Shown: positions 7,211-21,162, numbered from the stretch's first letter. The stretch is DNA of 21,163 nucleotides from a virus (IMGVR_UViG_3300033388_003831:1-21163); one strand, 5' to 3'. Numbers and translations are program-made. The notes: generated from the letters alone by a model not told the origin.

Positions 7211-7726
7211 TTATTTAATATGATGTATATAGTCTGGTGAAGCATTTTTACCGTAACCACTTAAAGTATAATCTAAATACTCAAAGCCTTGCTCAACCAT
7301 ATCCATATACATACGTTTGTATTTTCTGTCTATAGTGAATCTGTATTGCCTTAAATTCTTTGGGCTATCCCAAAAAACAAAATACCAATAACCAGATCTT
7401 AAATCTAACTTTATTTTCTTCCTTACTAAATTACCATTCTCATCCTTGAAAAAAGAAAATGTACTTGGATTATATCTAATACATTTTGTTTTAACAACAT
7501 CGAGAACACCAAACTTATTGAGAAGAGGAACAGAAGTTCCATTAATTAACATCTTAAAAGAAATTTGCAAATACAACCTTATGACTTTAGAGAACGTTCT
7601 ATAGTTAATTCTCTTAGATTTTGTTACTCCTTTTGGTAATTCTTGTAATCCCTTATCTATTTCATCCTTACACTCTTCAAAAACTCCAAACAAAGTAACA
7701 CAGCCATTATTATCCAAGCTTTGCAT
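7211..7726 (-). CDS. Conserved neck-block protein, possible ring component
   Basis: The product is 171 residues, basic and aromatic-rich, with a Tyr/Phe/Trp-dense part at about residues 105-165 (for example SGYWYFVFWDSPKNLRQYRF and YKRMYMDMVEQGFEYLDYTL). It lies between two proteins that look like crAss-like ring components and has the size of the short conserved protein found at this place in such phages. Its start overlaps the end of the previous gene by 17 bases, a longer overlap than its neighbours show, and it ends three bases before the next ATG. I see no catalytic motif. A role in assembling the portal-tail junction is inferred from context only. Confidence 0.65.
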   Translation of the reverse strand: MQSLDNNGCVTLFGVFEECKDEIDKGLQELPKGVTKSKRINYRTFSKVIRLYLQISFKMLINGTSVPLLNKFGVLDVVKTKCIRYNPSTFSFFKDENGNLVRKKIKLDLRSGYWYFVFWDSPKNLRQYRFTIDRKYKRMYMDMVEQGFEYLDYTLSGYGKNASPDYIHHIK

Positions 7727-8408
7727 TATCTTTTCTTGCGTTATTTAATTCATCGTTAACAGCCTGTTCAGTCCAGTTTAATTCATTTCTCAGAATACTA
7801 ACAAGAACAAACTCATATAAACGGAAAGGCATTGGGTAATCATCTACTGCAGGATCATAACATCTAGGTTCACAATCTTCAGAAGAATATCCAATAACTT
7901 TTTCTGGTTGTTCAAAGACACCACGAATATTTACATACTCAATATCTCTGTCTTGTTCAGAAAGCATAAAATAGATAATATTACCTATAAGGTATATTCT
8001 ACTACTTAGTTTACCAAATTTGGTATGAACCTTATGAGCAGCTTCATGAGCATTATTTAAAATAAAACCCTCTAGCTTATTTATCTTACCAACGTAAGAC
8101 AAAGCTCTTAAATCTGGAAAATCAATTAGTTTAGGTATCTCTACTTTCTTAACAGTACAACCCCATTTAACATTAGGACAATTACTATCAGCTTTATCAA
8201 CTTCTTCTAAAGGAACAACACCTAAATCTTGAATTAATGTAGGATGTATATTCTTACCAAAATCAGTTACTTGAAACATTCCAGAAGCTCTATAACCATT
8301 AATCCAAAGTCTAATTTGTCTAATGTTTAATCTTTCATCATCTGAATTACCTTGACCGGCACGAGCAATGTTTCTGATATTATAAGCGTATTCGTCTAAT
8401 GTAGGCAT
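7710..8408 (-). CDS. Ring-type neck protein with conserved DEYAYNIRN start
   Basis: This encodes 232 residues. The N terminus (TLDEYAYNIRNIARAG) followed by IRQIRLWINGYRA and IHPTLIQDLGVVPLEEVDKAD is a pattern I recognise from neck or tail-tube proteins of crAss-like and other Bacteroidetes phages. It supports the ATG at 8408 as the true start. Two cysteine pairs, C77/C84 and C179/C183, could bind a metal or form disulfides. This is the first gene after a strong terminator and sits 2 bases behind a TAACTTTACG box, so it probably opens a separate transcription unit encoding the neck and tail. The function is inferred from pattern and gene order; the ring number within the neck cannot be assigned from sequence alone. 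Confidence 0.75.
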   Translation of the reverse strand: MPTLDEYAYNIRNIARAGQGNSDDERLNIRQIRLWINGYRASGMFQVTDFGKNIHPTLIQDLGVVPLEEVDKADSNCPNVKWGCTVKKVEIPKLIDFPDLRALSYVGKINKLEGFILNNAHEAAHKVHTKFGKLSSRIYLIGNIIYFMLSEQDRDIEYVNIRGVFEQPEKVIGYSSEDCEPRCYDPAVDDYPMPFRLYEFVLVSILRNELNWTEQAVNDELNNARKDNAKLG

Positions 8409-8410
8409 AA

Positions 8411-8420
8411 CGTAAAGTTA
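8411..8420 (-). promoter_or_regulatory. Candidate promoter -7 box TAACTTTACG before the neck/tail genes
   Basis: On the minus strand TAACTTTACG ends two bases before the ATG at 8408. It matches seven of eight positions of the Bacteroidetes TAnnTTTG element and shares TTTACG with boxes at 19157-19166 and 20651-20660. A T-run (TTTT) lies 19 bases upstream, but the -33 element is not convincing. Transcription would start close to the A of the ATG, giving a leaderless or nearly leaderless message. It overlaps the T-tract of the terminator, so some read-through plus a fresh start is possible. Confidence 0.5.
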
Positions 8421-8460
8421 AAAAAAAAGGTGGTGATTTAAAACGCACCACCTTTTTTTT
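8421..8460 (-). terminator. Strong intrinsic terminator after the capsid block
   Basis: The arms GGTGGTG (8429-8435) and CACCACC (8446-8452) pair perfectly around a 10-base loop. Eight A precede and eight T follow on the plus strand, so the stem can extend by A-T pairs and has a U-tract in either direction. It lies 19 bases past the stop of the decoration-protein candidate, which is read leftward into it. It separates the capsid genes from the neck/tail genes. Confidence 0.9.
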
Positions 8461-8478
8461 ATTTGTGTTCTACTCTGA

Positions 8479-9171
8479 TTAAGGAGTGTTAATTAAAGTA
8501 ACTAAACCAGCTCCGTTACCAACAGTACCATACCAATAAATCTCTTTAGAGTTTGCACCCTCAGAGTCAATGAATGGATTAGCAACTTCAGCGTGTAAGT
8601 CAATTCTTACAGTATCATACTGAGCTAAGTTGATTTCAGAAGCATCGATACCTCTATCAACTAAATCAGATGGTTGACCCTCTGAAATAGAAGTTAAGTT
8701 AGCAACTAAAGCAATAGTACCTAAAGCACTATCAGTAAAGTTGAAACCTTTTAGTCCTTGCTTATCATCATCTTGTTGAGTAACAGTAATAACACCAGCT
8801 GCATTTACAGCAGAAGCAATAGGACTATTTAAAGACCCAGCCTCTTTGTTCATAGCATTTGCTAAAGCAGTAGCTATTGCAGTAACAGATGTTCCACCAG
8901 CTTGTACTTCGTGTACAAAAGACTTTCTGTAAAGCTGTCTGTTAGTCAAGTTAGATGTAATAGTCAATCTTAACTTGTCACCTACAGCGTAAGTTCCAGC
9001 AAGAGTGAATACTAAGTTACCAGCTGTACCAGCGTTTGGCGCTATTAATACAGCATATTTAAGTTCAGTTTTTTGAACTTTGAAAGATGGTGTTAAATCC
9101 ACCTCTCCATTTGTGTTTGCAGGGACGTGTCCTTCTGCAATCAAAGCGAAATAATCTCTTCCGATTCTCAT
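8479..9171 (-). CDS. Candidate auxiliary capsid / head decoration protein
   Basis: This encodes 230 residues, Ala/Thr/Val-rich and predicted mainly beta, with no cysteine and no membrane segment. Residues about 50-150 hold a domain with the pattern VGDKLRLTIT...SFVHEVQAGGTSVTAIATALANAMN that is also inserted in the ring-type protein at 6011-7207. It is the fourth gene after the major capsid protein, which as I recall is the place of the auxiliary capsid protein in crAss001. A strong terminator follows it, as expected for the last gene of a highly expressed capsid block. Decoration is the best guess; a head fibre or other surface protein is possible. The ATG at 9171 has no Shine-Dalgarno but an AT-rich leader. 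Confidence 0.65.
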   Translation of the reverse strand: MRIGRDYFALIAEGHVPANTNGEVDLTPSFKVQKTELKYAVLIAPNAGTAGNLVFTLAGTYAVGDKLRLTITSNLTNRQLYRKSFVHEVQAGGTSVTAIATALANAMNKEAGSLNSPIASAVNAAGVITVTQQDDDKQGLKGFNFTDSALGTIALVANLTSISEGQPSDLVDRGIDASEINLAQYDTVRIDLHAEVANPFIDSEGANSKEIYWYGTVGNGAGLVTLINTP

Positions 9172-9203
9172 AATTTATAATTTTGAAGGTTAATACTTAT
9201 TTA

Positions 9204-9566
9204 TTAGTGCATATGAGCATTTCTCTTACGCACAGGTCTATGGAACACAGGGTCCTTAGACTTTTCTTCCTTAGCTTTTTCCTCAGCCTCTTTTTTATCT
9301 TTAGCATCAGCTTTAGCCTTTTTATCAGCTTCTTTCTTAGCTTTTGCTTTAGCTTCCTTTTCAGCTTTAGCTTTAGCTTTTTTCTCAGCATCCTTAATCT
9401 TCTTTTGCTCTTCTTTCTGTTTAGCTAACATTAATTTGATAGTATCTCCTTTCGTAGTTACTTTCTTACTAATCTTAGTTCTCTTGTGAAGATCTAAAGT
9501 TTTTAATTCAGCAAGAGTAAAAGCTCTAAGCTGCTCTCTTGTATAGGTTACATTTACTTTTTCCAT
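9204..9566 (-). CDS. Lys/Ala/Glu-rich low-complexity protein
   Basis: The product is 120 residues. Residues 1-50 are an ordinary sequence (YTREQLRAFTLAELKTLDLH, then a basic patch RTKISKKVTTKGD) that might be a small SAP- or HeH-like helical module. Residues about 50-105 are almost only Lys, Ala, Glu and Asp, with repeats such as KAKAEKEAKAKAKKEADKKA, and should form a long single helix or histone-H1-like tail. The end (PVFHRPVRKRNAHMH) is again basic with histidines. It lies between the neck-like and decoration-like genes, so it is probably a minor virion or assembly protein, perhaps touching DNA. I do not recognise a family. Open frames on the other strand here are artefacts of the lysine codons. 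Confidence 0.7.
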   Translation of the reverse strand: MEKVNVTYTREQLRAFTLAELKTLDLHKRTKISKKVTTKGDTIKLMLAKQKEEQKKIKDAEKKAKAKAEKEAKAKAKKEADKKAKADAKDKKEAEEKAKEEKSKDPVFHRPVRKRNAHMH

Positions 9567-9575
9567 AACAATATT

Positions 9576-10217
9576 TTAATTCTGGTTATTCATTTCATTT
9601 TGATTAAGTTGATAATTCAACTGTTGTTCAGTTGTAGCCATCATCTTACTCACAGCAATACGAACAATCTCTTCGTGTGTAAACTCTGGTAATTCACAGT
9701 TTACATTATTACTAGGATTATTTCTATCTAAACGAACATTAGTTGGTCGTTTAAGATATTTGAGTGTGTAATTTAATGGGTCATTATCAGAAATAATAGA
9801 TATAACATTATTAGTTCCATCGTTACCTTCTGTATAACCTGGATTAGTATCATCGTTCTTATTAAATGGATCGTGTTGATTTTCGGCAACATCATCTAAT
9901 TGAACGGGAGATATCTTTTCCCAAGTTGTACCATTCCCACAAGACTTGTTAAATTCACCCATAAGGGCCAATGTGAACATATATTCTTGTATCGCATCTA
10001 AATTAATAGATGAAGTATTAGAACCAGTACTTTGTCTCACTAATGGTATTAACTCACTTCGTGTTCTTTCATCGAGTTCAAATTCACGATATCTCGATTC
10101 TGCAAATTGTGGTTGCGCTAGATTAAGAAACCTATCCTTTTCTTCATCAGAAAACCAAGGAGAGTCTGCTTTATCTAAAAGCAAATCACAATATTCATGC
10201 ATTTCGAGTATGTTCAT
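9576..10217 (-). CDS. Neck / adaptor-like virion protein
   Basis: This 213-residue protein begins with EMHEYCDLLLDKADSPWFSDEE, then DRFLNLAQPQFAESRYREFE and RSELIPLV. This layout is common in small structural proteins of Bacteroidetes phages, where a helical N terminus (FLN.AQ..F...RY..FE) precedes a beta part. The middle (about residues 110-150) is Asn/Asp-rich and probably a loop, and the last 20 residues are Gln/Asn-rich. It starts one base after the preceding stop and is followed by the Lys-rich protein 9 bases on. Position after the capsid gene suggests an adaptor or ring bound to the portal. The family resemblance is moderate and comes from memory; no enzyme motif is seen. Confidence 0.6.
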   Translation of the reverse strand: MNILEMHEYCDLLLDKADSPWFSDEEKDRFLNLAQPQFAESRYREFELDERTRSELIPLVRQSTGSNTSSINLDAIQEYMFTLALMGEFNKSCGNGTTWEKISPVQLDDVAENQHDPFNKNDDTNPGYTEGNDGTNNVISIISDNDPLNYTLKYLKRPTNVRLDRNNPSNNVNCELPEFTHEEIVRIAVSKMMATTEQQLNYQLNQNEMNNQN

Positions 10218-10218
10218 T

Positions 10219-10905
10219 CTATTTCAATTCTTTACGAATACTTGGGTGTAAGTCATCGTTTTCTCTCAACCATTCAAGAGCTAGTTCAAAAGTTGTCCCT
10301 ATAGTTTGTTCTTTAAATTTAAAGACACCATTTGACTTAGTAAACAATCCTTTCTCAATACCAGCTCTAATCATAATTTTGAGTTCTCTATCCTCATTTT
10401 CCCATTCGTTAATAACATTTTGAGGATCTTCTTGTACCTTATCATAAAGTTTCCTTTTGATAGCAGTAGGTGAACTACGCTCTTTAATTGTAACTAAAAG
10501 TACTCTAGCAAAACTCTTAACCTCATCATCAGATAATTTCTGAATGATTCCGTTAGCTTTTGCCTCTAAATCCTTAGCAAGAACAAAATTATTATCCTCA
10601 ACTTCGTGATTTATGAGTTTAAGAACAGGGTTGGCACCCTTTACATAAATAGGGTGCAACCTTACCTGTTCGTATGTTAGTCTATCGTTTAAATCAGAAA
10701 GGTTCAACAATATCTTTTTCTGAACTTTAAGAACTCTTTCAGCTCCATGTTGATCAACATATAGTCGTTTCTTTCCGTCGATTAAATAATCTCTAATGAC
10801 TATTGTACCAGTCTTTTTAGGGTTCAATAATCTTATTTCTGCAAATCCCTCTGCAGGTACTCCTTCCACTAATTTCTTAATAGCAGTTTTGTTTAGTGTT
10901 TCCAT
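10219..10905 (-). CDS. Unrecognised protein after the major capsid gene
   Basis: This encodes 228 residues with a mixed alpha/beta look. Residues about 15-70 seem beta-rich (IRLLNPKKTGTIVIRDYLID), the middle is helical and basic, and residues about 165-220 (LKIMIRAGIEKGLFTKSNGVFKF, then a Trp-containing helix) resemble a small winged-helix-like unit. It is the only gene in this operon with a clear Shine-Dalgarno (AAAGGA, 7 bases from the ATG), so its expression may be set separately from its neighbours. It stops one base before the next start. It could be a capsid-assembly or DNA-binding virion protein; I cannot name a family. Confidence 0.65.
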   Translation of the reverse strand: METLNKTAIKKLVEGVPAEGFAEIRLLNPKKTGTIVIRDYLIDGKKRLYVDQHGAERVLKVQKKILLNLSDLNDRLTYEQVRLHPIYVKGANPVLKLINHEVEDNNFVLAKDLEAKANGIIQKLSDDEVKSFARVLLVTIKERSSPTAIKRKLYDKVQEDPQNVINEWENEDRELKIMIRAGIEKGLFTKSNGVFKFKEQTIGTTFELALEWLRENDDLHPSIRKELK

Positions 10906-10912
10906 TTCTTTT

Positions 10913-10918
10913 TCCTTT
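10913..10918 (-). promoter_or_regulatory. Ribosome binding site AAAGGA
   Basis: Reading leftward, AAAGGA is followed by 7 bases and then the ATG at 10905. This is a normal Shine-Dalgarno and stands out, because the starts at 411, 1575, 7207, 9171, 9566, 10217, 12334, 13607, 15862, 19736 and 21041 have none. It fixes the start of the 228-residue protein. Confidence 0.65.
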
Positions 10919-10960
10919 ACTAAAAGTGATTAAACAATAATTAATTTAAAATAATATCAA

Positions 10961-12334
10961 TTAAGCAAATACTAATTGACCACAAGAAAGAGGGTTTCTT
11001 ACGATGATACCTGATTCACATAGGTACTCACAAGTAAATGCATCTCTTGCGTTAGCAGCTTTCATTGATTTTTGGTCAAATGGGTCAACCATTCCAGGAA
11101 TATATTTTACAATCATTCCTCTGTCGATACCACCTGCACCTTTAACTTTTCTTTCGATGTTAGAAACTCCATCAGTAGTTCCCATATCTAAGAATACCAT
11201 TCTAAATGATTCAACCGGAGCACCAGAAACTGGGTCAATGTTGTTACCATGTAAGTTTGGATCATCAAATAATGGATTGTGAACTAAAGTCATTGTGTGC
11301 CCTAAAGCATTGTATGACGTAAAGTTTACACCAATGTTCATTTCTTCTCCAGTTTGAGCATCGTAGATTAAGTTACCAGAAGGGTAAACTAAATCTTTCA
11401 TAGCTCTATGGAATGCAACTTTACCTTGAGTACCAGTAAATACAAACCATCTTGAAGATTTATTTCCAGTGTTAAGAGATAACTGAGCTAAGAAGTCAGT
11501 AATTCTTTCTTCTGTTAATGTACCATTGTACGTATCGATGTTTGCAGCATCAATTTGTCTTAATAGACCATCACCAGTAACAACTGGACGACCTTGATTA
11601 TCAGTAACAGTAGAATTACCGTTAGCATCCATAGTAGTTACATCGTACCAATCTTTTAATTCTTTTTGATACAAGAACTCATCTCTTGTAATTTGCTCAT
11701 CAGTAAAGAACCATAATCTTTGACCGTTGTTCTCAACCCAAGTAATATCAGTTAAAGCTGAACCAGAGATTGATTTAGACTTTCTTGAAATACTAATGTA
11801 GTTGATATACCAGTCTGGATAAACGTGGTTCTCATATCCTCTATCAGAACTTTCAGGGAAAGCATTACCAACAGTATTAACTGTAGTTGCAGCAGTTAAA
11901 GATGCAGCAGAAACAGCATAGTTAGGATCAGTAGATTGAGGTTTGAATGAGAAAGTGTAACCACCAGTAGTTGGAGTTGGCTCACCCATAACAATAGCTT
12001 GATTTCCATCAGCAAATCTTACAGTATCGTAAGGGTTTAAGAAGTTTTCTTCAAATTCTACAGAGAACTGAGTTAAACCAGCACCATTACCAGTATTAGT
12101 TCCAGTACAAGTAGAAGGTCTATTAGTTCTTCCTAATATTGGCCATCTAAATGCATTTTCACCAATCATTTCTTCTTTAGCGAATTTTCCTAAACCATCT
12201 ACTAAATAACTAATAGAATATTGTGGAAATTGTCTGATAATCGTTTTAGCGATTTCAGGATACTTTAACAAGTTAGTTGTTAAAGAGTTTGATTCTACGG
12301 TATCTTTACCGTATGTACCTTTATGATATTTCAT
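10961..12334 (-). CDS. Major capsid protein (HK97 fold expected)
   Basis: This encodes 457 residues. The segment GDGLLRQIDAANIDTYNG, then EERITDFLAQLSLNTGNKSS, RWFVFTGTQGK and FHRAMKDLVYP (about residues 257-324), is the look of crAss-like and Bacteroidetes-phage major capsid proteins. The N terminus (TNLLKYPEIAKTIIRQFPQY) would be the N-arm, and residues about 85-165 contain a Thr/Gly/Ser-rich loop or insertion. It follows the portal and scaffold-like genes in the usual order. The start at ATG 12334 lies behind a 58-base AT-rich leader without Shine-Dalgarno. The HK97 fold is known for the family and not visible directly. No N-terminal scaffold domain is obvious, in agreement with a separate scaffold gene just upstream. 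Confidence 0.85.
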   Translation of the reverse strand: MKYHKGTYGKDTVESNSLTTNLLKYPEIAKTIIRQFPQYSISYLVDGLGKFAKEEMIGENAFRWPILGRTNRPSTCTGTNTGNGAGLTQFSVEFEENFLNPYDTVRFADGNQAIVMGEPTPTTGGYTFSFKPQSTDPNYAVSAASLTAATTVNTVGNAFPESSDRGYENHVYPDWYINYISISRKSKSISGSALTDITWVENNGQRLWFFTDEQITRDEFLYQKELKDWYDVTTMDANGNSTVTDNQGRPVVTGDGLLRQIDAANIDTYNGTLTEERITDFLAQLSLNTGNKSSRWFVFTGTQGKVAFHRAMKDLVYPSGNLIYDAQTGEEMNIGVNFTSYNALGHTMTLVHNPLFDDPNLHGNNIDPVSGAPVESFRMVFLDMGTTDGVSNIERKVKGAGGIDRGMIVKYIPGMVDPFDQKSMKAANARDAFTCEYLCESGIIVRNPLSCGQLVFA

Positions 12335-12392
12335 AACAAAACATTTTTAGTTTATAAATAATTTTAAAATATTTTGCAAAAACATAAATATC

Positions 12393-13607
12393 TTACTTTT
12401 TCTTACCATTCGATGTAAACTTACTTACATCAAATTCATCAGAACCAGCAGGATCTCTATACCTCTGCTTATCTGAAACATCTGGATTCCCAATATCATC
12501 GAGAATTTCTTGCTTGCCCTTATTAAATCCCTTGTTCTTAGCAGCTTTAAGAATAACATCTTTGTTTTTCCATAGCCAAGCCGCCTCTGATAGATTAGCC
12601 GGATTATCTGTAACCTCATTTAAGAAGTTACCCGATGTAATATACTCAAGGTGGTTTTTACGGATTTCAGGAAGTTTATTCTCATCCTTTGACATCTTCA
12701 TATCGAACATTGTATCGATACCATTAAGATGGTCCGTAAGCTCCTTAACTGCATTATCTCTATCTTGCTGTTGCTTTGCCTCAGCATCTTTGTTAGAATT
12801 AATAACAGATTGTTGTTCCCTTTCAATAGCACTATCAAGTCCGTTTCTAATTTTCTTAGCCTCAAACTTTAGAGTGTTATTATCAGTATGTACATCAATC
12901 GCTTCATTGATTTCCTCTTCAGAGAATCTTTGCTGTTTCAATTCAAGTCTAACAAGCTCTTCATCAGTTTTCTTCTTTAAGTTCTTAAAGGTAGTAATCT
13001 TCTTACTATCAACAGAACCAAGCTCTAACTTTCTAAGCCTATCATTCTCAGCTTGAATACTTTCAAGAGTCTCTTTAAATTCATCAACAGTTTTAGCTTC
13101 AAAACCTAATTTATCAGCTACAACTAAATAAGCATCATCTAAAGAACCTTGACTTTGATTACCTTCACCGTCTCCGTTTCCAGCATCATCGTCACTATTA
13201 TCATTTGAATCATCGTTAGAATCATCATTTGAATTTTCATTATCATTATTCTGATTATCTCCTTCGCCATCACCCTCTCCATCATTTCCTTCATCTCCAT
13301 CTCCCTCGTAAGCATCCCAGCTAAAATCATCTCCATCATCATTCCCATCGTTTCCATCATCGCCAGAATCACCAGAGCCATCTCCATCTCCTTCTCCATC
13401 TTCACCTTTATCGCCACTTCCCTCATCGCCTGAATTATTGTCAGGTTTATTTTCTTGAGAAGCTATGCTTGAAAATGCATCAGCATCAAAATTATCTCCA
13501 TCTCCGGAATTACCGTTGTCAGAATTTTCATTACCTTCATTACCAACACCAGAATCGTTATTCCCAGTGCCTTGTTCTTCTTGGTTGTTTTCGTTGTCTT
13601 TTTCCAT
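12393..13607 (-). CDS. Acidic scaffold-like protein
   Basis: From the ATG at 13607 the product has 404 residues. An in-frame TTG start at 13631 would add eight residues but is less likely. Residues 1-155 are an extremely acidic low-complexity region of Asp, Glu, Gly, Asn and Ser. Residues about 160-290 are helical and charged with coiled-coil character (for example ESIQAENDRLRKLELG). The C terminus (about 375-404) is basic and ends in Lys-Lys-Lys, which would suit binding to capsid protein. Location between portal and major capsid genes and the helical nature fit a phage scaffolding protein. No protease motif is visible. The very acidic arm is unusual in length; its purpose is unknown. Confidence 0.7.
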   Translation of the reverse strand: MEKDNENNQEEQGTGNNDSGVGNEGNENSDNGNSGDGDNFDADAFSSIASQENKPDNNSGDEGSGDKGEDGEGDGDGSGDSGDDGNDGNDDGDDFSWDAYEGDGDEGNDGEGDGEGDNQNNDNENSNDDSNDDSNDNSDDDAGNGDGEGNQSQGSLDDAYLVVADKLGFEAKTVDEFKETLESIQAENDRLRKLELGSVDSKKITTFKNLKKKTDEELVRLELKQQRFSEEEINEAIDVHTDNNTLKFEAKKIRNGLDSAIEREQQSVINSNKDAEAKQQQDRDNAVKELTDHLNGIDTMFDMKMSKDENKLPEIRKNHLEYITSGNFLNEVTDNPANLSEAAWLWKNKDVILKAAKNKGFNKGKQEILDDIGNPDVSDKQRYRDPAGSDEFDVSKFTSNGKKK

Positions 13608-13648
13608 AACGTTTACATTTAAATTAAACAATCAATTACAAATATATA

Positions 13649-15862
13649 TTATTTTTCTGAAACCGTTGCTTCAGACATTTGCTCGTTATCTTGAGCAGTA
13701 CTTTCTAACATAGTTTGATCTAACTTAGCTCTACGCTCTTCCGTTTGCATATCTTCCTTATGTTCTAAGTCATTACCTTGCCTCACACTATTTCCTTCTT
13801 CTTTTATCTGAGCAACAGTAATATCAGCATTAGCTTTAATCTTAGCAACCTCAAGAGGTACCTCAATTTTTCTACCCTCTATCTCATTAGCTGTGTCAGT
13901 AGCGGCAACCTTACGTTCTTCAAGTTCAGCTTGTTGTTCACGTATTGCTTGCAACCCTTGAGTTAAAATACTTTCAACCTCACTTGAAGTTTCAGCATTA
14001 ACAGATTTAATTACAGCCACAGGATCAACTTGACCAGTTGAAGCATATCTTTCAAGAATAGCCTTAATCTCATTTTTACGCTGAACTTCTTTCCCACTAT
14101 TTTCAACAAATATTCCATACTCATCAAGAGCAATAGATTTATCTATTTCAAATGTTTCCATTCCAGTATCGCCAAAAATATTAGCCATTCTACCCTCATT
14201 ACCCCAAGCAACTTTCATTAATCCAGCCATAGACTGAAATACATCTCCAATTAACTTATAATGTAAATCAAATAATGGAGCAGTAATCAAAGTAGATTGC
14301 ATTACGTTTCTTTCCGTAACACCAACTAAATCTCCTGATTTCTGAACACCACTACGAGCAGCGCTAATACCAGTTAACTTATCAGCAGTTTCCTCAATCA
14401 TTATTTTCAGATTAACCATCTGAGCAACAGATTGTGATAACGTAAAGTCAACTTGTTGGAATTGGTTGAATGAATTGGTTTGCATTCCCTCAGCCTTATT
14501 ATTAATAAGAATAAGACCTGTATTCTTAGCGTGATAGAATACATCTTCTAATGGAACACCTTTAGGTTTTTGAGAAGTATCGTACACAATAGCTTTACCA
14601 CCAGCTCTTGACATAGCAAGCTCTATCTGGTACATTGTGATATTAAGTAATATTTGTAAGTTTTTAAGAGAATCAACTATACTTAATGTTTCGCCATTAA
14701 AGTTGTTTCTAATAACACCATGATAATCGAATAATGCATTAGCATAGTTTTCCTCAAACCTTATTTGATTTGGTTTTCTACCCCAATCAATTAACGTATC
14801 GTGTCCAATAAGTGTAGCCTGGTGTATATCATTAATTGGTTTACTAACAATTTCTTCCCCAGCCTTTGCTTTATAATTGTCAGCAACTTTCTTGTAATAA
14901 GGATTTTCAGGGTCATAAGGATTTGGAGAAACTTTATGTTTAACCATTCTAATACTCTTCCATTGAAGATGAACAACTCTAATCTTTAAGTTTCTACTTT
15001 CATCATACGAATAGAAATCCCAAATATCAGAACCATTATTATTACCTTGTAAAGCACCATTCTCTAATTCTTCAAGTTCAGTAAGTTGTTTCTTTGTAAG
15101 CTTATGAGAATATTGGTCTACAACTTCATTTAATGTTTTCCAATTATCTTGACCAACATATTTAGAATCTTTTAAATCTTCTTTGTCAATATCAACATCG
15201 TATAACATTACACGAGGATCCATTCTCTCCGCATAAGGGTCACCATTCTTGATATATGTATAATAAAATTCTTTACCGGTAATTCCTAAATCATAGAAAC
15301 CTCTTTTAAAAGAACTTTTTAAATCCCATTTTTCAACACAATATCTTAAACCTACATGAACTTGCTCTTCAATAGCATTTCTGAATTTAAGATTTTTATA
15401 TCTTTCTATATCCTCTGGAACTTCTTGACCTACATTCTCATCAGGTATTGGCATACCGATAGCCTTCTCAATATCTCTACGTATAGGCCTCATTAATACT
15501 TCCGCAGCTAAACTAATCTTCTCTTCATTCTTTCTACGGATAGCATTACGATTAATTACTTGAACAGTAAATTGTAATGGTTGACTTATTAACTCACCAG
15601 CTAATAAATCTAATTTAGGCATAATGATAGGATAGTTAACAAAACGAGCTGGAGATGTAATTCCATACATATCCGTTACATACTCAAATTGTTTATGATC
15701 AAACTTTCCTGAAGCTATTAAATAATTTTCGTGGTCTTTTCTTCTTGAATCAATGAACCTATCATATCCCTTATGGTATCTAAGTATTGAGTTAACACAA
15801 TCTAAGTGCCATTCCTCATTTTTCTGTTTGAAGGGAATATTCTGTTTAGGAAAGTCGTTCAT
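13649..15862 (-). CDS. Portal protein
   Basis: The 737-residue product follows the large terminase gene by 8 bases and has the size of a crAss-like portal. The core includes DRFIDSRRKDHENYLIASG near residue 35, VNYPIIMPKLDLLAGELIS near 78 and a Gly/Ser-rich stretch with SGDLVGVTERNVMQSTLIT near 510, consistent with the stem/crown of a portal. Residues about 635-737 are a long charged helix (QQAELEERKVAATDTANEIE onward), probably the coiled barrel or tail inside the head. Twelve copies would form the ring through which DNA is packaged. The start ATG at 15862 has no Shine-Dalgarno. The identification rests on gene order, length and pattern together. Confidence 0.85.
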   Translation of the reverse strand: MNDFPKQNIPFKQKNEEWHLDCVNSILRYHKGYDRFIDSRRKDHENYLIASGKFDHKQFEYVTDMYGITSPARFVNYPIIMPKLDLLAGELISQPLQFTVQVINRNAIRRKNEEKISLAAEVLMRPIRRDIEKAIGMPIPDENVGQEVPEDIERYKNLKFRNAIEEQVHVGLRYCVEKWDLKSSFKRGFYDLGITGKEFYYTYIKNGDPYAERMDPRVMLYDVDIDKEDLKDSKYVGQDNWKTLNEVVDQYSHKLTKKQLTELEELENGALQGNNNGSDIWDFYSYDESRNLKIRVVHLQWKSIRMVKHKVSPNPYDPENPYYKKVADNYKAKAGEEIVSKPINDIHQATLIGHDTLIDWGRKPNQIRFEENYANALFDYHGVIRNNFNGETLSIVDSLKNLQILLNITMYQIELAMSRAGGKAIVYDTSQKPKGVPLEDVFYHAKNTGLILINNKAEGMQTNSFNQFQQVDFTLSQSVAQMVNLKIMIEETADKLTGISAARSGVQKSGDLVGVTERNVMQSTLITAPLFDLHYKLIGDVFQSMAGLMKVAWGNEGRMANIFGDTGMETFEIDKSIALDEYGIFVENSGKEVQRKNEIKAILERYASTGQVDPVAVIKSVNAETSSEVESILTQGLQAIREQQAELEERKVAATDTANEIEGRKIEVPLEVAKIKANADITVAQIKEEGNSVRQGNDLEHKEDMQTEERRAKLDQTMLESTAQDNEQMSEATVSEK

Positions 15863-15870
15863 ACAATTTA

Positions 15871-17874
15871 CTAATTATCATCATCTAAATCGTAATCAAA
15901 AGTAGGTAATCTTTTTCTATTACCAAAACCATTGTTCTTTCTATTGGCACCAGACAAACTTACGGTACCATCATCGGACCTTGAAAACTCTGGTAGACCT
16001 GCCATTTTCTCTAGCTTTTCCTCTTTACTACTATCAATTATATTTTTTAGGTTATCCATATCGTGTATTAAAGCCATACCGAAAGCCATAACCCTATCTG
16101 TATTTTTCCTACCATATACGGAGAACTCATTTAACAGTTTCAAGAAATAAATATCTTCCCAATGTTTTTTAATGTATTCATCCACCAATTCAGTCAACAA
16201 CTTCTTTTGGAATGTTTTCATATGAATACCATACCTATTTGTTACTTGACTCCAAGGACTATCTGCAGCACGAGGACGTTCTTTCAGATATCTTGTCATT
16301 TTATTATCTATAAAATATTTTAAGAAACCATCATCATTGTACTCAACCAATATTTGGGTATCATACATAATAGCTAGTTTCAAACAATTCTCATAGAACT
16401 TCTCTTTAGAGTAAGGTCTATCAGTATAGAACGCCACAGGTAATTCACCTATTGTATTCTGATTAACAAACCTACGATATACACACATACAACCTTTAGA
16501 CCTATCCCCTTGTTCAGAAGCAGGTTTTTTCATTTCTTCTAATTCATCATCTATGTGGTAAGGATCCACAGCTGACAAGTGTATATTTTTAAACCCATCG
16601 ATTGGTTGTTCAACAAGTTCAAATGGATAAGCATCTTCTTCAATACTCTCTGGAACAATTAATTCACCATTAGCTTTATCTTCCCATTCATAAACTACGA
16701 CTGGCTTACTTCCAAATATTTCTTTTCCATCTTTATCTTTACCCCACTCTAATCTTGCACGCTGTACTCTTTGAAAGGAAGGATTTGTATTGATATTAGA
16801 TATCTGTTTATTAATCTTCTCTAAATCAAATGGAGTACCACCACTACGATAAAAAGCGTGTTCTACCTCTAGTGGATTCTCTTGTAAGTAAGAATAATAC
16901 GTTTGTAAATCTCCAGTATCTTTTCTACGTTGAGCTTCTGCCAATACAAATTTCTCAGCACCAGCTGTATCAGATATACCAGTACTCATATCAAAGAAAC
17001 TACCAAATACTTTAGAAGCCTTAATGAATACAGGTTTAAGATTATACCTTTCAGCATTATAATACATCTCCATAAAGTCATCAGACTCTACTTCCATATT
17101 ATTTGAGGTACCACCAATGATTGGTGTACCAAAGAAAATATCTCCCTCTTTAAAACAATCCTCAGAAGATTCAAATGACCTTTTAAGTTTTAGGAACTCC
17201 CCAGCCTCTTCAAATACCATATAGTTCAATGAGGTACCACGAAAAGCATTAGGCTTTTCCATTACCCTAAAATGTATCATTGACTTAGTTCCTTTTTCCA
17301 CCCAAATACCATCTATCTTCTCCTTATATCCAGACATCAGTATCTCTTCATTATTATGAAGTATCTTATTTCTTAATTCAGGGGGTAGCTCATTGTATGA
17401 TAACAGTAGTTTTTTTCTAAAATCTTGAACATAATCTTCTTTTTGAGCACCTAAACCATTTTCAGAATGAGGATACATAGTCCACTCGTGTAACAATGTA
17501 TTCGCATTCATAAACGAAAACCCTTTACGCCTTGCTTTTACAACGATTATTCCATAACCACCTTTGTTATCTTTACCATCACCATATTTAGCGTGATATA
17601 TTTCAAGAAAATATTCATGATCTTGGTCACGATAACGTGGTGGTATCATAGATTTACGCCTTGCTCCTTCTGCAAGACCATGTATTTTAGAGAAATTTAA
17701 ATAGAAATAATAATTTGGTGGTATCCAGGAGCCACCAGTTGGTTTAAACCCATGCTTTAATCTATGCATTTGTTCTTTCCAATAAGCAAAATACTCAGCT
17801 GTATTATGCTTTAACTTTCTGTAATCTTGATTTCTATCAAAAATTACTGGAGAATATTTTTCTGCAGATATCAT
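15871..17874 (-). CDS. terL: Large terminase subunit
   Basis: This 667-residue DNA-packaging motor has an N-terminal ATPase and a C-terminal nuclease. An ATP-binding motif of non-classical form, VVKARRKGFSF, lies at residues 111-121, Walker B-like MVFEEAG at 219-225 and the coupling segment FFGTPIIGG at 247-255. RNase H-type nuclease motifs are DPYHID (D437), ILVEYNDD (E511, D514/D515) and NTDRVMAFGMAL (D593). The acidic tail (YDLDDDN) is short. The start ATG overlaps the previous stop as ATGA (17871-17874). It cuts concatemeric DNA and pumps it through the portal encoded just after it. All motifs needed for activity appear present, apart from the atypical P-loop discussed in the findings. 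Confidence 0.92.
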   Translation of the reverse strand: MISAEKYSPVIFDRNQDYRKLKHNTAEYFAYWKEQMHRLKHGFKPTGGSWIPPNYYFYLNFSKIHGLAEGARRKSMIPPRYRDQDHEYFLEIYHAKYGDGKDNKGGYGIIVVKARRKGFSFMNANTLLHEWTMYPHSENGLGAQKEDYVQDFRKKLLLSYNELPPELRNKILHNNEEILMSGYKEKIDGIWVEKGTKSMIHFRVMEKPNAFRGTSLNYMVFEEAGEFLKLKRSFESSEDCFKEGDIFFGTPIIGGTSNNMEVESDDFMEMYYNAERYNLKPVFIKASKVFGSFFDMSTGISDTAGAEKFVLAEAQRRKDTGDLQTYYSYLQENPLEVEHAFYRSGGTPFDLEKINKQISNINTNPSFQRVQRARLEWGKDKDGKEIFGSKPVVVYEWEDKANGELIVPESIEEDAYPFELVEQPIDGFKNIHLSAVDPYHIDDELEEMKKPASEQGDRSKGCMCVYRRFVNQNTIGELPVAFYTDRPYSKEKFYENCLKLAIMYDTQILVEYNDDGFLKYFIDNKMTRYLKERPRAADSPWSQVTNRYGIHMKTFQKKLLTELVDEYIKKHWEDIYFLKLLNEFSVYGRKNTDRVMAFGMALIHDMDNLKNIIDSSKEEKLEKMAGLPEFSRSDDGTVSLSGANRKNNGFGNRKRLPTFDYDLDDDN

Positions 17875-18419
17875 TCAGACAACCTCTGTTCTTGTTCAAT
17901 TAAACTGAAATTATCAGAACCGGTACCTTGTATTTTAGATTCACTTTCTTGGTCCTTTAAAATCATTTGCTTTATTTTCTCTCTTGATTCTGCTGCAGTA
18001 AACATTTTTTTCTGCATATCATTAATCTCATCAATATTATCTTTGGTTGCAGTTATTTTTCTAAACTCCTTAGTAACCTTATAAGCTTGTTCACTCATAG
18101 CATTATATTGGTCAATCAAAGGATCATACTGTAAATTAACATATTCCTTTATCGCATCTTGAACATCAACATTTTTTTCTTGAGGATTTTTAAGTTTATC
18201 GGTACCAAAAATAATTTGACTTACCCTAGCCTTTCTTTCATCTTCTGGTAATCTTCTATATGGAGATTTATAATCATACACACAAACTATCCATCGAACT
18301 TGCTTACTACCACCTTTTTTACTTTTGTAAACTTTCCACATTGCTGGCATTAATGCTATAGATTTATCCTCTAAGAACACATTCCCATCCTTACCTATAC
18401 TTACAAGTTCGTTATACAT
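17871..18419 (-). CDS. Candidate small terminase subunit
   Basis: The 182-residue product lies directly before the large terminase and is coupled to it by an ATGA overlap. Its own start is coupled to the preceding small gene by TAATG. Residues 20-75 are basic and aromatic with YDYKSPYRRLPEDERKARVS, and residues about 85-165 are helical and charged with coiled-coil character (for example NMEINDMQKK-type heptads near 130). A small subunit is expected at this position and such proteins are short, helical and poorly conserved, so the role is likely but not proven. No clear helix-turn-helix is visible at the N terminus, which is a reason for caution. Confidence 0.55.
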   Translation of the reverse strand: MYNELVSIGKDGNVFLEDKSIALMPAMWKVYKSKKGGSKQVRWIVCVYDYKSPYRRLPEDERKARVSQIIFGTDKLKNPQEKNVDVQDAIKEYVNLQYDPLIDQYNAMSEQAYKVTKEFRKITATKDNIDEINDMQKKMFTAAESREKIKQMILKDQESESKIQGTGSDNFSLIEQEQRLSE

Positions 18420-18565
18420 TAATATCTAAATTTATTCTTACCTTTTCTTGAAGTTGGTGTAAGTTTTTTCTTACCCTTTTTGTTAGCGCCTTTGTTCTTT
18501 TTGGCCCGTTGCTCTCTTCTTTGAGCATCCTCAGCAAAAGCCGCTTTTTGACCTAATTTTCCCAT
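18419..18565 (-). CDS. 48-residue highly basic protein
   Basis: An ATG at 18565 opens 48 codons ending at TAA 18419. The product starts MGKLGQKAAFAEDAQRREQR and continues with a Lys/Arg-rich part (AKKNKGANKKGKKKLTPTSR, then KGKNKFRY). About 18 of 48 residues are Lys or Arg, so it should bind nucleic acid or an acidic protein. Both ends use TAATG, sharing one base with the neighbouring genes, which is strong evidence that it is real despite its length. It fills an otherwise unexplained 145-base gap before the candidate small terminase. The function is unknown; a packaging or DNA-binding cofactor is possible by position. Confidence 0.8.
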   Translation of the reverse strand: MGKLGQKAAFAEDAQRREQRAKKNKGANKKGKKKLTPTSRKGKNKFRY

Positions 18566-18795
18566 TAGTTATAGATTAATTGATTTATTGTTTTATCAAC
18601 ATACTTATAGAACCTTTGTCTATGAGCAATAGATTCTTCTTGTAAAAATAAGAATAAAGCTTGTATTCTGACAGAACCAAGTCTTTCTCCACTACAAGAA
18701 ACCCATTTATCATTTTTCTTTATAAGCTTTAGACCATCAATGTCAAGCATATTTTCTCCTAATCTTATTACTTCTACATTTCCCATGTTATTCAT
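18565..18795 (-). CDS. Unknown 76-residue protein
   Basis: The frame is open from 18831, but that start lies 44 bases inside the upstream gene. The ATG at 18795 overlaps the previous stop by only 8 bases and is preferred; another ATG at 18786 follows almost at once. The product (MNNMGNVEVIRLGENMLDID...) has a beta-like N-terminal half and a helical second half with QALFLFLQEESIAHRQRFYK. One cysteine occurs. No family is recognised. It is coupled to the basic 48-residue gene through TAATG, so it belongs to the terminase operon. It could be a small regulator or assembly factor; the sequence gives no more. Confidence 0.6.
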   Translation of the reverse strand: MNNMGNVEVIRLGENMLDIDGLKLIKKNDKWVSCSGERLGSVRIQALFLFLQEESIAHRQRFYKYVDKTINQLIYN

Positions 18796-19102
18796 TTTTT
18801 TCGATATAAATTGGATTATAGTAAAACTCACTAGAGTCTTTACGTCCAGCCAATATATCTACGTTAACTAATTCGCTCAATCCATTATAGATTGATTTGT
18901 TTTCTTTGAACTCAAGCTCAAACTTCGCATTCTTCATATCAAAATATATTATACCATCTTCTTTGTAAGAAGTTTCGATAATGTAAAGTAATACCTTAGA
19001 TGCTGTTTTACTAAGCTCTGAAATCACCCTAACATATTCAAATGGAACATTAAGAACATCCTCATCGAATGGGTTATTATCGTGCATTTTGTGATTCCTC
19101 AT
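18788..19102 (-). CDS. RepL-like winged-helix protein
   Basis: The 104-residue product has a helical N-terminal part (NVPFEYVRVISELSKTASKV) and LLYIIETSYKEDGIIYFDM. It then has a helix-turn-helix candidate (FKENKSIYNGLSELVNVDI) followed by a beta wing (AGRKDSSEFYYNPIYIEKN). The ending 'GLSELVNVDILAGR...EFYYNPIYI' closely follows the pattern of RepL-type plasmid replication proteins and their phage relatives, which crAss-like phages are known to carry. It is the first gene of the leftward operon and is transcribed away from the rightward cassette, so it could control this divergent region rather than replicate DNA. The start is ATG 19102; ATG 19087 (MHDNNPF) is an alternative. DNA binding is inferred from the fold pattern. 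Confidence 0.65.
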   Translation of the reverse strand: MRNHKMHDNNPFDEDVLNVPFEYVRVISELSKTASKVLLYIIETSYKEDGIIYFDMKNAKFELEFKENKSIYNGLSELVNVDILAGRKDSSEFYYNPIYIEKNE

Positions 19103-19106
19103 AATA

Positions 19107-19114
19107 CAAAGTTA
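19107..19114 (-). promoter_or_regulatory. Leftward promoter -7 box TAACTTTG
   Basis: On the minus strand TAACTTTG matches the Bacteroidetes -7 consensus TAnnTTTG at every fixed position. It lies 4 bases before the ATG at 19102, so transcription would begin at about the ATG, leaving no leader, or use ATG 19087 with a short leader. No good TTTG -33 element is seen; the palindrome at 19122-19142 covers that region. It should drive the operon of the winged-helix protein, terminase and capsid genes. Confidence 0.65.
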
Positions 19115-19121
19115 ACAAAAA

Positions 19122-19142
19122 AAGTGTATTAAAAGTACACTT
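19122..19142. promoter_or_regulatory. Divergent operator palindrome AAGTGTA-N7-TACACTT
   Basis: The 7-base arms AAGTGTA (19122-19128) and TACACTT (19136-19142) are perfect inverted repeats around TTAAAAG. The centre at about 19132 is within a few bases of the midpoint between the two -7 boxes (19107-19114 and 19157-19166). It would cover the -33 region of both promoters. Without a U-tract after it and with a small AT loop it does not look like a terminator. Confidence 0.65.
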
Positions 19143-19156
19143 AGCAATAAAAATAG

Positions 19157-19166
19157 TACATTTACG
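19157..19166 (+). promoter_or_regulatory. Rightward promoter box TACATTTACG
   Basis: TACATTTACG ends 2 bases before the ATG at 19169, the same spacing as TAACTTTACG before the ATG at 8408. It matches seven of eight positions of TAnnTTTG. The right arm of the palindrome occupies the place of a -33 element, so a bound regulator could block or replace sigma contact. It should drive the three-gene rightward cassette with little or no leader. Confidence 0.5.
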
Positions 19167-19168
19167 AT

Positions 19169-19528
19169 ATGTTAGAAACTAAACGAAAATACAAGATTGG
19201 TTACAAGCCTAATGTTTGTACAATATCAGGAACTTTTTTCTATATCAAAAAAAAGGATCTGGATAAGTATAATCGTTTAAAAATGTCAAATAGACATAAA
19301 GAGAAAGATAAACTTGTAAATGAAATATTTGTTTACGAAATTCTTGCTGTCATCGATTGCGAGAAAAAAATTCCTACCAAAAAAATTAAAGCATCTCTAA
19401 ATAGAAGAATTTGGAAGATGTATTCTATTTCTGGAAAAATAGAAGATTATAAAACACACTTAAAAGATATTAAAATCATAATGAACCATGGAAAGGTTAA
19501 TTATGAATTTGATGAAACAATCCATTAA
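19169..19528 (+). CDS. Unknown basic protein, first of the rightward cassette
   Basis: The 119-residue product is basic (many Lys) with a mixed beta/helix look. It contains GYKPNVCTISGTFFYIKKKDL near residues 11-31, a central helical part and NRRIWKMYSISGKIEDYKTH near 77-96. Two cysteines are present (C17, C64). There is no membrane segment or known motif. It is the first gene transcribed rightward from the shared operator region and ends one base before the next ATG (19530). A role early in infection, or in controlling the divergent late operon, would fit a basic protein at this position, but that is inference. Confidence 0.65.
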   Translation: MLETKRKYKIGYKPNVCTISGTFFYIKKKDLDKYNRLKMSNRHKEKDKLVNEIFVYEILAVIDCEKKIPTKKIKASLNRRIWKMYSISGKIEDYKTHLKDIKIIMNHGKVNYEFDETIH

Positions 19529-19529
19529 T

Positions 19530-19733
19530 ATGATTCTAAATCAAATCGACCAACTTAAAAGAGGTCCAATTACAGCGAAGCAATTAAAAAAGAAAGGAAT
19601 TAAATCTCCTGAAGAAGAAAATGGTATTAGATTAGATTCTAAAACTATAGTTTACCCTAAAAAGAAATTTAGATCAGAAGCTTCTAAGCAAAAGTGGATT
19701 GAAGAGAAACGTAAACAATTAAATTTAATATAG
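19530..19733 (+). CDS. Unknown 67-residue basic protein
   Basis: The frame is open from ATG 19488, inside the previous gene. The ATG at 19530 follows the stop of that gene after a single base and is preferred; in-frame ATGs at 19503 and 19512 are other choices. The 67-residue product (MILNQIDQLKRGPITAKQLK...) has a helical start, a middle KGIKSPEEENGIRLDSKT and a very basic helical end (KFRSEASKQKWIEEKRKQLN). The segment ITAKQLKKKGI could be part of a small DNA-binding helix pair, but this is weak. It belongs to the three-gene rightward unit. Confidence 0.55.
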   Translation: MILNQIDQLKRGPITAKQLKKKGIKSPEEENGIRLDSKTIVYPKKKFRSEASKQKWIEEKRKQLNLI

Positions 19734-19735
19734 CT

Positions 19736-20113
19736 ATGAGCGAAGAAAACATTAACGAAGAGAACAATGTAGAAGTTATCGAAGATGCTGCTACACAAGA
19801 AAAGCAATTAGTAGACCTTCCAATATTCCCATTAATCAAATGTGAGAGAGAAAAGAACACTCTCATACTACTAACCTATTTTAGAAAGAAACACCAAGGA
19901 AAGTACTATTTAGTTAAATTCGACAGACGAGCTTATGTTCCTGAAGGACGAATGGTATTCTCACCGGCCATATCATCTTTTATGAGAGATATCTACTTAA
20001 TGATGCTTCACGGTAAGATTAGTGTAAGAACCAAAAGAAATGATGGTACCAGGTATTATAAATTAGATGAGAACCAGATGGATGAGAAATTGAGAATGAA
20101 ACCGATATTATGA
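19736..20113 (+). CDS. Unknown protein, last of the rightward cassette
   Basis: The 125-residue product starts two bases after the previous stop. Residues 1-25 are very acidic (SEENINEENNVEVIEDAATQ). Residues about 28-105 appear beta-rich and basic, with LPIFPLIKCEREKNTLILLT, KYYLVKFDRRAYVPEGRMVF and an aromatic end YYKLDENQMDEK. No family is recognised. It is the last gene before the terminator at about 20147. The acidic arm attached to a basic body resembles small phage proteins that bind host proteins or nucleic acid, but there is no direct evidence. Confidence 0.65.
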   Translation: MSEENINEENNVEVIEDAATQEKQLVDLPIFPLIKCEREKNTLILLTYFRKKHQGKYYLVKFDRRAYVPEGRMVFSPAISSFMRDIYLMMLHGKISVRTKRNDGTRYYKLDENQMDEKLRMKPIL

Positions 20114-20146
20114 TCGTGCTAGATTAATAAATAAATTCACATAAAG

Positions 20147-20179
20147 AAAAAACCCCAGTTTGCACGAGCTGGGGTTTTT
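20147..20179 (+). terminator. Terminator of the rightward cassette
   Basis: CCCCAG (20153-20158) pairs with CTGGGG (20169-20174) around the 10-base loop TTTGCACGAG. The A-run before (20147-20152) and the T-run after (20175-20179) extend the stem and provide the U-tract for rightward transcripts. It lies 34 bases after the stop of the 125-residue protein. With the next hairpin it fills the 205-base convergent gap 20114-20318, in which I see no gene. Confidence 0.85.
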
Positions 20180-20240
20180 AATTGCGTAATCATTTAAAAA
20201 TCAAAAATAACATAACAATAATAGAAGTGACTACAAATAT

Positions 20241-20287
20241 AAAAAAAACCTCATACCATTAGCTATTTGGTACAAGGTTTTTTTAAA
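20241..20287 (-). terminator. Terminator of the leftward nuclease unit
   Basis: AACCT (20247-20251) pairs with AGGTT (20275-20279), and TACCA (20254-20258) with TGGTA (20268-20272), separated by a symmetric CA/CA internal loop; the apical loop is TTAGCTATT. A-runs and T-runs flank it, giving a U-tract in both directions. It lies about 32 bases beyond the stop of the membrane protein at 20319 and faces the rightward terminator. Confidence 0.8.
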
Positions 20288-20318
20288 ATTCTTCTTACGC
20301 TGGCTGCGAACTCTCCTG

Positions 20319-20645
20319 TCACTTAGGATTCCGGATTGCTTTCGGAACCACCAGTCTACCGTCATTAAGTACAATAGAATCAAGTTTAACCTGATAATTG
20401 CTTAGTTTGGTAGAGCATATTCTACAAGGCTCGGTTAATTCCTTTGCCTTATAGTTGAACATAGCATTGTAATCAGCATTATGTTCAAATTGGTCTAAAC
20501 CAGCTTGTTGAGTTTCAATTTCATTCCAATTCTCAACTACTTCATCGATATGACTATTCTGCTCAATCTTAGCTCCTACCAAGAAAGAAATTACCATCAG
20601 TGTAATCACCGATAAGAATTGCCATATTTTAGAATCGTTTAGCAT
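20319..20645 (-). CDS. Small single-pass membrane protein
   Basis: The 108-residue product has one hydrophobic segment near the N terminus (about residues 8-26, WQFLSVITLMVISFLVGAKI) with charged flanks, and then about 80 residues of soluble sequence that would lie in the periplasm. A CRIC motif (two Cys) occurs near residue 73-76. The soluble part is partly helical (about 35-70) and ends in a beta-like LDSIVLNDGRLVVPKAI. This shape fits an inner-membrane spanin or other small lysis-associated protein, but no homology is recognised. It follows the exported nuclease gene, and a TAGATTTACG box lies directly before its start, so it may have its own promoter. Confidence 0.6.
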   Translation of the reverse strand: MLNDSKIWQFLSVITLMVISFLVGAKIEQNSHIDEVVENWNEIETQQAGLDQFEHNADYNAMFNYKAKELTEPCRICSTKLSNYQVKLDSIVLNDGRLVVPKAIRNPK

Positions 20646-20650
20646 TGGAC

Positions 20651-20660
20651 CGTAAATCTA
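20651..20660 (-). promoter_or_regulatory. Candidate promoter TAGATTTACG with -33 TTTG
   Basis: On the minus strand TAGATTTACG begins directly after the nuclease stop codon. TTTG at 20681-20684, inside the nuclease gene, lies 20 bases upstream, close to the Bacteroidetes TTTG-N19-TAnnTTTG arrangement. Five bases separate the box from the ATG at 20645. It is the third copy of TAnnTTTACG in the window and the only one with a good -33 element. Confidence 0.5.
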
Positions 20661-21041
20661 CTAATAATCTTTTTTCTCTGCAAATCCTTCTTCAATCAAC
20701 CATTTATTGATATTTACACCATCAGCGTGTATAATAGCTAATAAACGACCATACTTACCACGCTTATCATTCATCGTATAAATGTGAACAACCTCAGCGT
20801 TTTTTAACTTAGCTCTCAAAGCATCTCTACTCTTTAAGCCTTCGTATCTTTTAGAACCTCTAACCTCTGGTGCATTTAAGCCATATAGTCTAAGCTTCTC
20901 AATTTTAGAGATATCTAAACCAAGATGTACTCTTGCTGTTACAGTATCTCCATCATATACAGAAATTATCTCTGTTTCGTACTTAGCCGCAAAGGAACTA
21001 AGTAATAGGGCTATGCCTAATAATATAAATATCTTTTTCAT
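20661..21041 (-). CDS. Exported staphylococcal-nuclease-like (SNase) enzyme
   Basis: From ATG 21041 the product has 126 residues. Residues 1-19 (MKKIFILLGIALLLSSFAA) are a signal peptide with likely cleavage after Ala18 or Ala19. This favours 21041 over the in-frame ATG at 21125. The SNase motifs follow: YDGDTVTAR (D30, D32), LRLYGLNAPE (R51, N56, E59) and KYGRLLA (R99). Spacing R-N-E matches R35-D40-E43 of staphylococcal nuclease, with D40 replaced by Asn, a change I recall in other family members. It would cut DNA or RNA with calcium outside the cytoplasm or in the periplasm. Thermonuclease genes are known in crAss-like phages. Confidence 0.85.
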   Translation of the reverse strand: MKKIFILLGIALLLSSFAAKYETEIISVYDGDTVTARVHLGLDISKIEKLRLYGLNAPEVRGSKRYEGLKSRDALRAKLKNAEVVHIYTMNDKRGKYGRLLAIIHADGVNINKWLIEEGFAEKKDY

Positions 21042-21105
21042 AATTCTAATTTTATTCCCAGTTATAGGTAAGGAAATCCGTATCCCTCTCTTTGTGCTCA
21101 CGGTT

Positions 21106-21162
21106 TTAATTTTTAACCTCACCATCTGGGGTTGTCTTTAACGTTTTAAAATAATCGAGAAA
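21106..21162 (-). CDS. Possible C-terminal end of an upstream gene
   Basis: From the right edge one minus-strand frame is open for 18 codons (FLDYFKTLKTTPDGEVKN) and ends at TAA 21106. The sequence reads like the end of a normal protein, and it would lie 64 bases upstream of the nuclease ATG in the same direction. The remaining 21042-21105 holds no clear promoter or terminator. The call is weak because only 57 bases can be seen. Confidence 0.35.
   Translation of the reverse strand, partial: FLDYFKTLKTTPDGEVKN

Follow-up and report, generated by a model that had tools for sequence, protein, structure and literature searches.

Host-type -7 elements placed four or five bases before start codons suggest leaderless late transcripts in environmental crAss-like phages

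A promoter element that lies within a few bases of a start codon raises the question of where the message begins and which polymerase makes it. The question is posed by a viral record of 21,163 bp, referred to here as the window (the whole stretch of DNA analysed). In it, an original prediction had pointed to three TAnnTTTACG boxes 2-5 nt before ATGs, from which leaderless messages would be made, and suggested that they may be a distinct TTTACG promoter class, read by a modified host or phage-directed polymerase. All three are present in the sequence (Table 1) and their contexts hold: the first is preceded by a terminator hairpin and T-run, the second lies in a divergent gap of 66 bp, and the third is just past the stop codon of a nuclease gene.

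On its minus strand, the window encodes a structural module of crAss-like type. TerL, the portal, the major capsid protein (MCP) and a ring protein match crAss-type PHROG or Pfam families (PHROGs 11589, 6547, 6681 and 9863; PF25702), the set of proteins that marks a Crassvirales-type structural module. Two genes to which no function is assigned lie between the head genes and the terminator; one (8479-9171) is well conserved in relatives, while the other (9204-9566) is poorly conserved, lysine-rich and repetitive. The closest cultured relative found is Cellulophaga phage phi14:2, with 29% identity in ring-2. No Rfam match and no tRNA was found in the window region, and a sigma-70 pattern scan of the region gave nothing exceeding shuffled sequence.

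Table 1. Positions of the promoter boxes and associated features in the window
Feature	Coordinates	Strand	Details
crAss tail ring protein 2 (ring-2)	7710-8408	minus	PF25702 CrAss_Ring_2, E 5e-27; PHROG 9863
10-mer TAACTTTACG	8411-8420	minus	2 nt ahead of ATG 8408
-7 box TAACTTTA	8413-8420	minus	spacer CGTT (4 nt), ATG 8408; predicted TSS 8408
Intrinsic terminator of upstream head genes	8421-8460	minus	GC hairpin, A-tract, T-run
Fourth TAnnTTTACG	17649-17658	plus	within terminase TerL; G at variable position
104-aa winged-HTH-like protein	18788-19102	minus	candidate regulator or replication initiator
Canonical -7 box TAACTTTG	19107-19114	minus	spacer TATT (4 nt), ATG 19102; orthologs retain spacer 4
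Inverted repeat AAGTGTATTAAAAGTACACTT	19122-19142		between divergent boxes; possible operator
-7 box TACATTTA	19157-19164	plus	spacer CGAT (4 nt), ATG 19169; orthologs retain spacer 4
10-mer TACATTTACG	19157-19166	plus	2 nt ahead of ATG 19169
119-aa conserved protein	19169-19528	plus	function unassigned; first gene of plus-strand operon
108-aa membrane protein	20319-20645	minus	61% identical to L064 1230-1574
10-mer TAGATTTACG	20651-20660	minus	5 nt ahead of ATG 20645
Box TAGATTTA	20653-20660	minus	spacer CGGTCCA (7 nt), ATG 20645; weak candidate

TAnnTTTACG occurs four times in the window against 0.53 expected, and none of 100 shuffles reaches four. The fourth copy, which the original prediction did not list, is antisense inside TerL; it looks like chance and was rejected as a promoter candidate. 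Relatives were fetched via ring-2, TerL and MCP, giving 48 distinct contigs (1.16 Mb, window included). The enrichment before genes on which the TTTACG class depended is absent from this set: 63 copies are found, and only the three window sites lie within 10 bp of an ORF start. The closing CG is not conserved in relatives, and orthologous boxes alternate between TTTA and the canonical TTTG, so a distinct TTTACG class is unsupported. The true unit is TAHHTTTR-N4-ATG, a host sigma-A -7 element with a purine in last position, 4 (or 5) nt before the start codon.

This unit emerges from 535 ORFs whose upstream gap measures 25 nt or more, called mechanically (ATG only, at least 50 aa), so that some starts are approximate, as are the gut-phage counts given below. 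TAnnTTTA is found before 23 ORFs at spacer 4 and two at spacer 5, and TAnnTTTG before 13 and seven; at the remaining spacers from 0 to 12, each occurs 0-7 times. Control boxes at spacers 4-5 are rare (TTTT, two; TTTC, none; scrambled motifs, 0-3). The box at spacer 4-5 thus precedes 45 of the 535 ORFs against a dinucleotide-shuffle mean of 2.95 and maximum of 7 in 200 runs, a count whose members are not independent since the contigs are from related phages and ring-2 supplies 21 of the 45 cases. Counted per protein family, spacer 4 is represented by 12 families and every other spacer from 0 to 14 by 0-7. At orthologous genes the spacer is constant while the box sequence varies, swaps of A and G in the last base included. 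Among the other families with the arrangement are a MADWGLY protein of about 500 aa (MADWGLYSALRG...), which has it in seven phages, and MCP and TerL, each with a single case. Dozens of related phages from the environment show this predicted leaderless layout.

TAnnTTTA could arise near ATGs by chance, in AT-rich gaps and in the T-rich tails of terminators; A+T makes up 67% of the sequence, the T-run of the terminator gives a T-rich context, and the exact 10-mer is unenriched before genes in relatives. This explanation is extremely improbable given the excess over shuffles and the lack of a TTTT peak even though T is as common as A. The box also occurs with equal spacing at divergent promoters without terminators, which argues against a chance product of T-rich tails.

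The phage boxes share several properties with Bacteroidetes sigma-ABfr promoters (-33/-7, TTTG / TAnnTTTG), namely their sequence, the exclusion of G and a distance of 4-5 nt to the predicted start. G is found at the two variable positions in none of the 45 spacer-4/5 sites, compared with 40 of 186 boxes further upstream (p = 1e-4); the same exclusion is reported for host promoters, TAHHTTTG (PMC6847099). In Flavobacterium johnsoniae, 4 or 5 nt separate this -7 element from the start site (PMC6847099), and the spacer of 4-5 therefore places the predicted start at the A of the ATG. Transcription beginning at about the ATG, as originally proposed, is supported by this match, by the peak at spacer 4-5 in relatives and by the spacing kept at orthologous genes. 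The phage boxes differ from sigma-ABfr promoters in ending in A as often as G, in having the start codon as predicted start and in showing no clear -33 motif (TTTG) in the 38 bp upstream of the sites; the -33 element is weak in F. johnsoniae as well (PMC6847099).

Bacteroidetes have no Shine-Dalgarno signals and rely instead on the bases immediately ahead of the start codon (PMC6847099). The box could accordingly be a translation-initiation context rather than a promoter, on transcripts that come from far upstream. Such a signal should also occur at operon-internal ORFs; these carry the box at spacers 4-5 in only seven of 466 cases (gap below 15 nt) and show no comparable peak, which argues against a translation signal. 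Moreover, the best -7 matches in the 66-bp divergent gap are the two boxes beside the ATGs, and the ring-2 start lies 12 nt behind a strong hairpin, a bad position for initiation on read-through RNA. A purely translational role is very unlikely.

Ring-2 is the first gene of the ring/IHF/muzzle segment, and the T-run of the terminator adjoins its promoter box. The terminator folds with -18.6 kcal/mol (z -4.2); a simple pattern scan missed it because of its 10-nt loop. In a scripted count, a GC-rich hairpin, usually with a T-run, precedes ring-2 orthologs in at least 34 of 37 distinct upstream regions. The stem sequences largely differ between phages; the region thus has what identifies a terminator, a GC-rich stem followed by a T-run in which pairing is kept while sequence changes. 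Exact TAnnTTTR at spacer 4-5 is present in 20 of the 37 regions, with TTTA or TTTG depending on lineage; the other 17 include leadered genes and near-misses. In L038-L040, L045-L046 and L054 the box lies farther off, at 18-22 nt upstream; the same promoter would thus seem able to give a leader as well. Since the box follows the terminator tail, the upstream part of the ring-2 promoter would lie within that tail. A leaderless transcript is well supported as the prediction for 8408.

Leaderless transcripts are likewise well supported as predictions for the divergent genes at 19169 and 19102. The canonical box of the latter, TAACTTTG, was overlooked in the original prediction; it is an exact TAnnTTTG, while 8408, 19169 and 20645 have A for G and some orthologs of those three have TTTG. 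The only other TAnnTTTR matches in the gap are two of TTTA type on the minus strand. Orthologs of the 19169 gene are found in L012, L064, L074, G019, G017, G005, G009 and L011. Their boxes at spacer 4 include TATTTTTG-TAAT-ATG (L012/G015), TACATTTG-TTAT-ATG (G019) and TATCTTTA-CACT-ATG (G017). On the 19102 side, spacer 4 is retained in L012, L064 and L074 (ATG) and in G019 (GTG start), with TATCTTTG-TACT-ATG in L012/G015 and TATATTTG-CCTT-GTG in G019; L011 departs from this, its HTH gene having a longer leader. The window copy of the 104-aa protein has no Pfam match, and its L064 and L074 orthologs match HTH_36 with E 1.5e-4, below the cut-off.

About ten relatives, among them L012, L064, L074, G019, G017, L011, G005 and G009, carry a TGTA-N7-TACA-like palindrome in the corresponding position. 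Lying between two putative leaderless promoters and beside the winged-HTH-like gene, it is a probable operator. Some orthologs of the 19169 gene (L063/L064 near 3393 and L074 near 1066, both minus strand) have the box at spacer 4 followed by ATC GAA; there is no ATG, GTG or TTG in their first codons, which suggests an AUC start on a leaderless mRNA.

The third site, at 20645, is less convincing. The gap from the upstream gene is 15 nt and the box has G at a variable position (TAGA), so that the exclusion of G does not extend to it. The ortholog in L063/L064 reads TACATTTG-CTGA-ATG, with spacer 4, behind a terminator-like stretch; compared with this, the spacer of 7 and the G make the window site look weaker or degenerate. 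The prediction of a leaderless transcript is weaker here than at 8408, 19169 and 19102. Chance similarity, strongly disfavoured for 8408 and 19169, may still account for the box at 20645. The 108-aa membrane protein has no PHROG or Pfam match; its position and shape suggest a lysis/spanin-type gene. The neighbouring ORF, 20661-21125, encodes a thermonuclease-like protein (PHROG 452), and its start may be called too early, as a second in-frame ATG opens a signal-peptide-like stretch.

The last base of the box bears on whether the phages have a promoter class of their own, in which TAHHTTTA (often TTTAC) would be recognised either by host polymerase that a phage factor has modified or by the phage RNA polymerase. 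At the spacer-4/5 sites, A is as common as G (25 and 20; T, 2; C, 0), which departs from the near-invariant G of F. johnsoniae. The TTTAC form is frequent (17 ORFs), and virion genes (ring-2, the MADWGLY protein and the single MCP and TerL cases) mostly carry A. Host-like DNA was represented by an Emticicia plasmid, Persicobacter megaplasmids, a Flavobacterium plasmid and a Prevotella replicon listed as a plasmid. Prevotella has nine TTTG and no TTTA boxes at spacers 4-7, a small sample that is not from the phage's host; Persicobacter gave no useful signal. A search for the host chromosome via phi14:2 NrdA led to a single contig, labelled Aliivibrio, and one via the window nuclease mostly to enterobacterial plasmids. 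These data hint that A in last position is commoner in phages than in host-like DNA, in numbers too small for a separate class; with protein families as the unit of counting, the A/G contrast with host DNA is not large enough for a verdict.

Other evidence points away from a phage-specific class. Orthologous promoters switch between A and G, the exclusion of G and the spacing are identical to those of the host element, and sigma domains (PF04542, PF04545) were found in none of ten phage records, all possibly incomplete. According to a review, host RNA polymerase probably transcribes the late genes of crAss-like phages, and the virion RNA polymerase the early and middle ones (PMC10136315). The proposed modified or phage-directed polymerase is thus unneeded as well as unsupported, and a phage-specific class is unlikely. 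The same holds for its narrower form, a TAHHTTTA(C) late-promoter subclass of the environmental crAss-like clade, in which phage-modified host polymerase would make leaderless virion mRNAs from promoters in terminator tails; this too is improbable.

The arrangement varies between phage groups. Among the gut crAss-like phages crAss001, cr50_1, cr115_1 and cr131_1, none of 311 ORFs has the box at spacer 4-5, a count that mechanical ORF calls and altered genetic codes may distort. The difference from the environmental set (45 of 535) gives p = 7e-10, or p = 1e-5 when ring-2 is removed (24 of 496), both values ignoring relatedness. Flavobacterium phage Fpv3 has no box (0 of 29 ORFs); phi14:2 has it at three of 41 ORFs, at spacers 4, 5 and 5, and the upstream sequence printed for its portal gene holds an additional box at spacer 6. 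Absence from the gut relatives tested makes the layout look like a feature of the environmental clade. Compared with late transcription in phi14:2 and crAss001, the structural module is alike and host RNA polymerase is expected; the box at spacer 4-5 sets the window apart from the four gut genomes.

On the replication-module side of G017, G009, G037, G023 and G027, many ORFs follow a compact GC hairpin that ends about 13-29 nt before the ATG. Such hairpins are found in the 75 nt upstream of 7-12 ORFs per contig, against none in shuffles; these ORFs are mostly without a -7 box, and phi14:2 is mostly without such hairpins. Terminator chains, processing sites and virion-polymerase promoters are all conceivable roles for them.

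Leaderless messages are known from other systems. The lambda cI message is a leaderless phage message starting at its AUG; it depends on a sigma-70 promoter and encodes a lysogeny regulator, whereas virion genes are concerned here. In Flavobacterium psychrophilum, 5.5% of mapped mRNAs are leaderless (PMC9723704). Flavobacterial leaderless mRNAs and the phage cases are alike in having the start codon at the (here predicted) 5' end in a non-Shine-Dalgarno host; the phage cases differ in that they lie at late virion genes that are conserved and in a divergent control region, with some promoter-terminator overlaps. A literature search on leaderless messages or promoters of Bacteroidetes phages found nothing direct.

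Most probably, the boxes are -7 elements of the Bacteroidetes housekeeping sigma factor (sigma-ABfr type), 4 and sometimes 5 bp before the start codon, that give leaderless mRNA. Host holoenzyme would bind TAHHTTTR and start at the first base of the ATG or one or two bases away, and the ribosome would load onto the 5' AUG. At ring-2, the head-gene transcript would end at a terminator whose tail overlaps the promoter, and expression would restart directly behind it; on read-through RNA the start codon would follow a strong hairpin by 12 nt, which makes it probable that a separate leaderless transcript serves for translation of the tail segment. Transcription of the pair 19102/19169 would come from two such promoters, with the palindrome between them probably serving as the binding site of a regulator. 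The site at 20645 is probably the same element, degenerated, with a leader of 2-3 nt or weak activity.

If this is true, host-type promoters give rise to leaderless late mRNAs in an uncultured environmental clade of crAss-like phages, and late promoters and true gene starts would be findable by computer. The overlap of terminator and promoter would be a compact way of uncoupling head and tail gene expression. The layout would also bear on how Bacteroidetes ribosomes, which do without Shine-Dalgarno signals, start on leaderless RNA.
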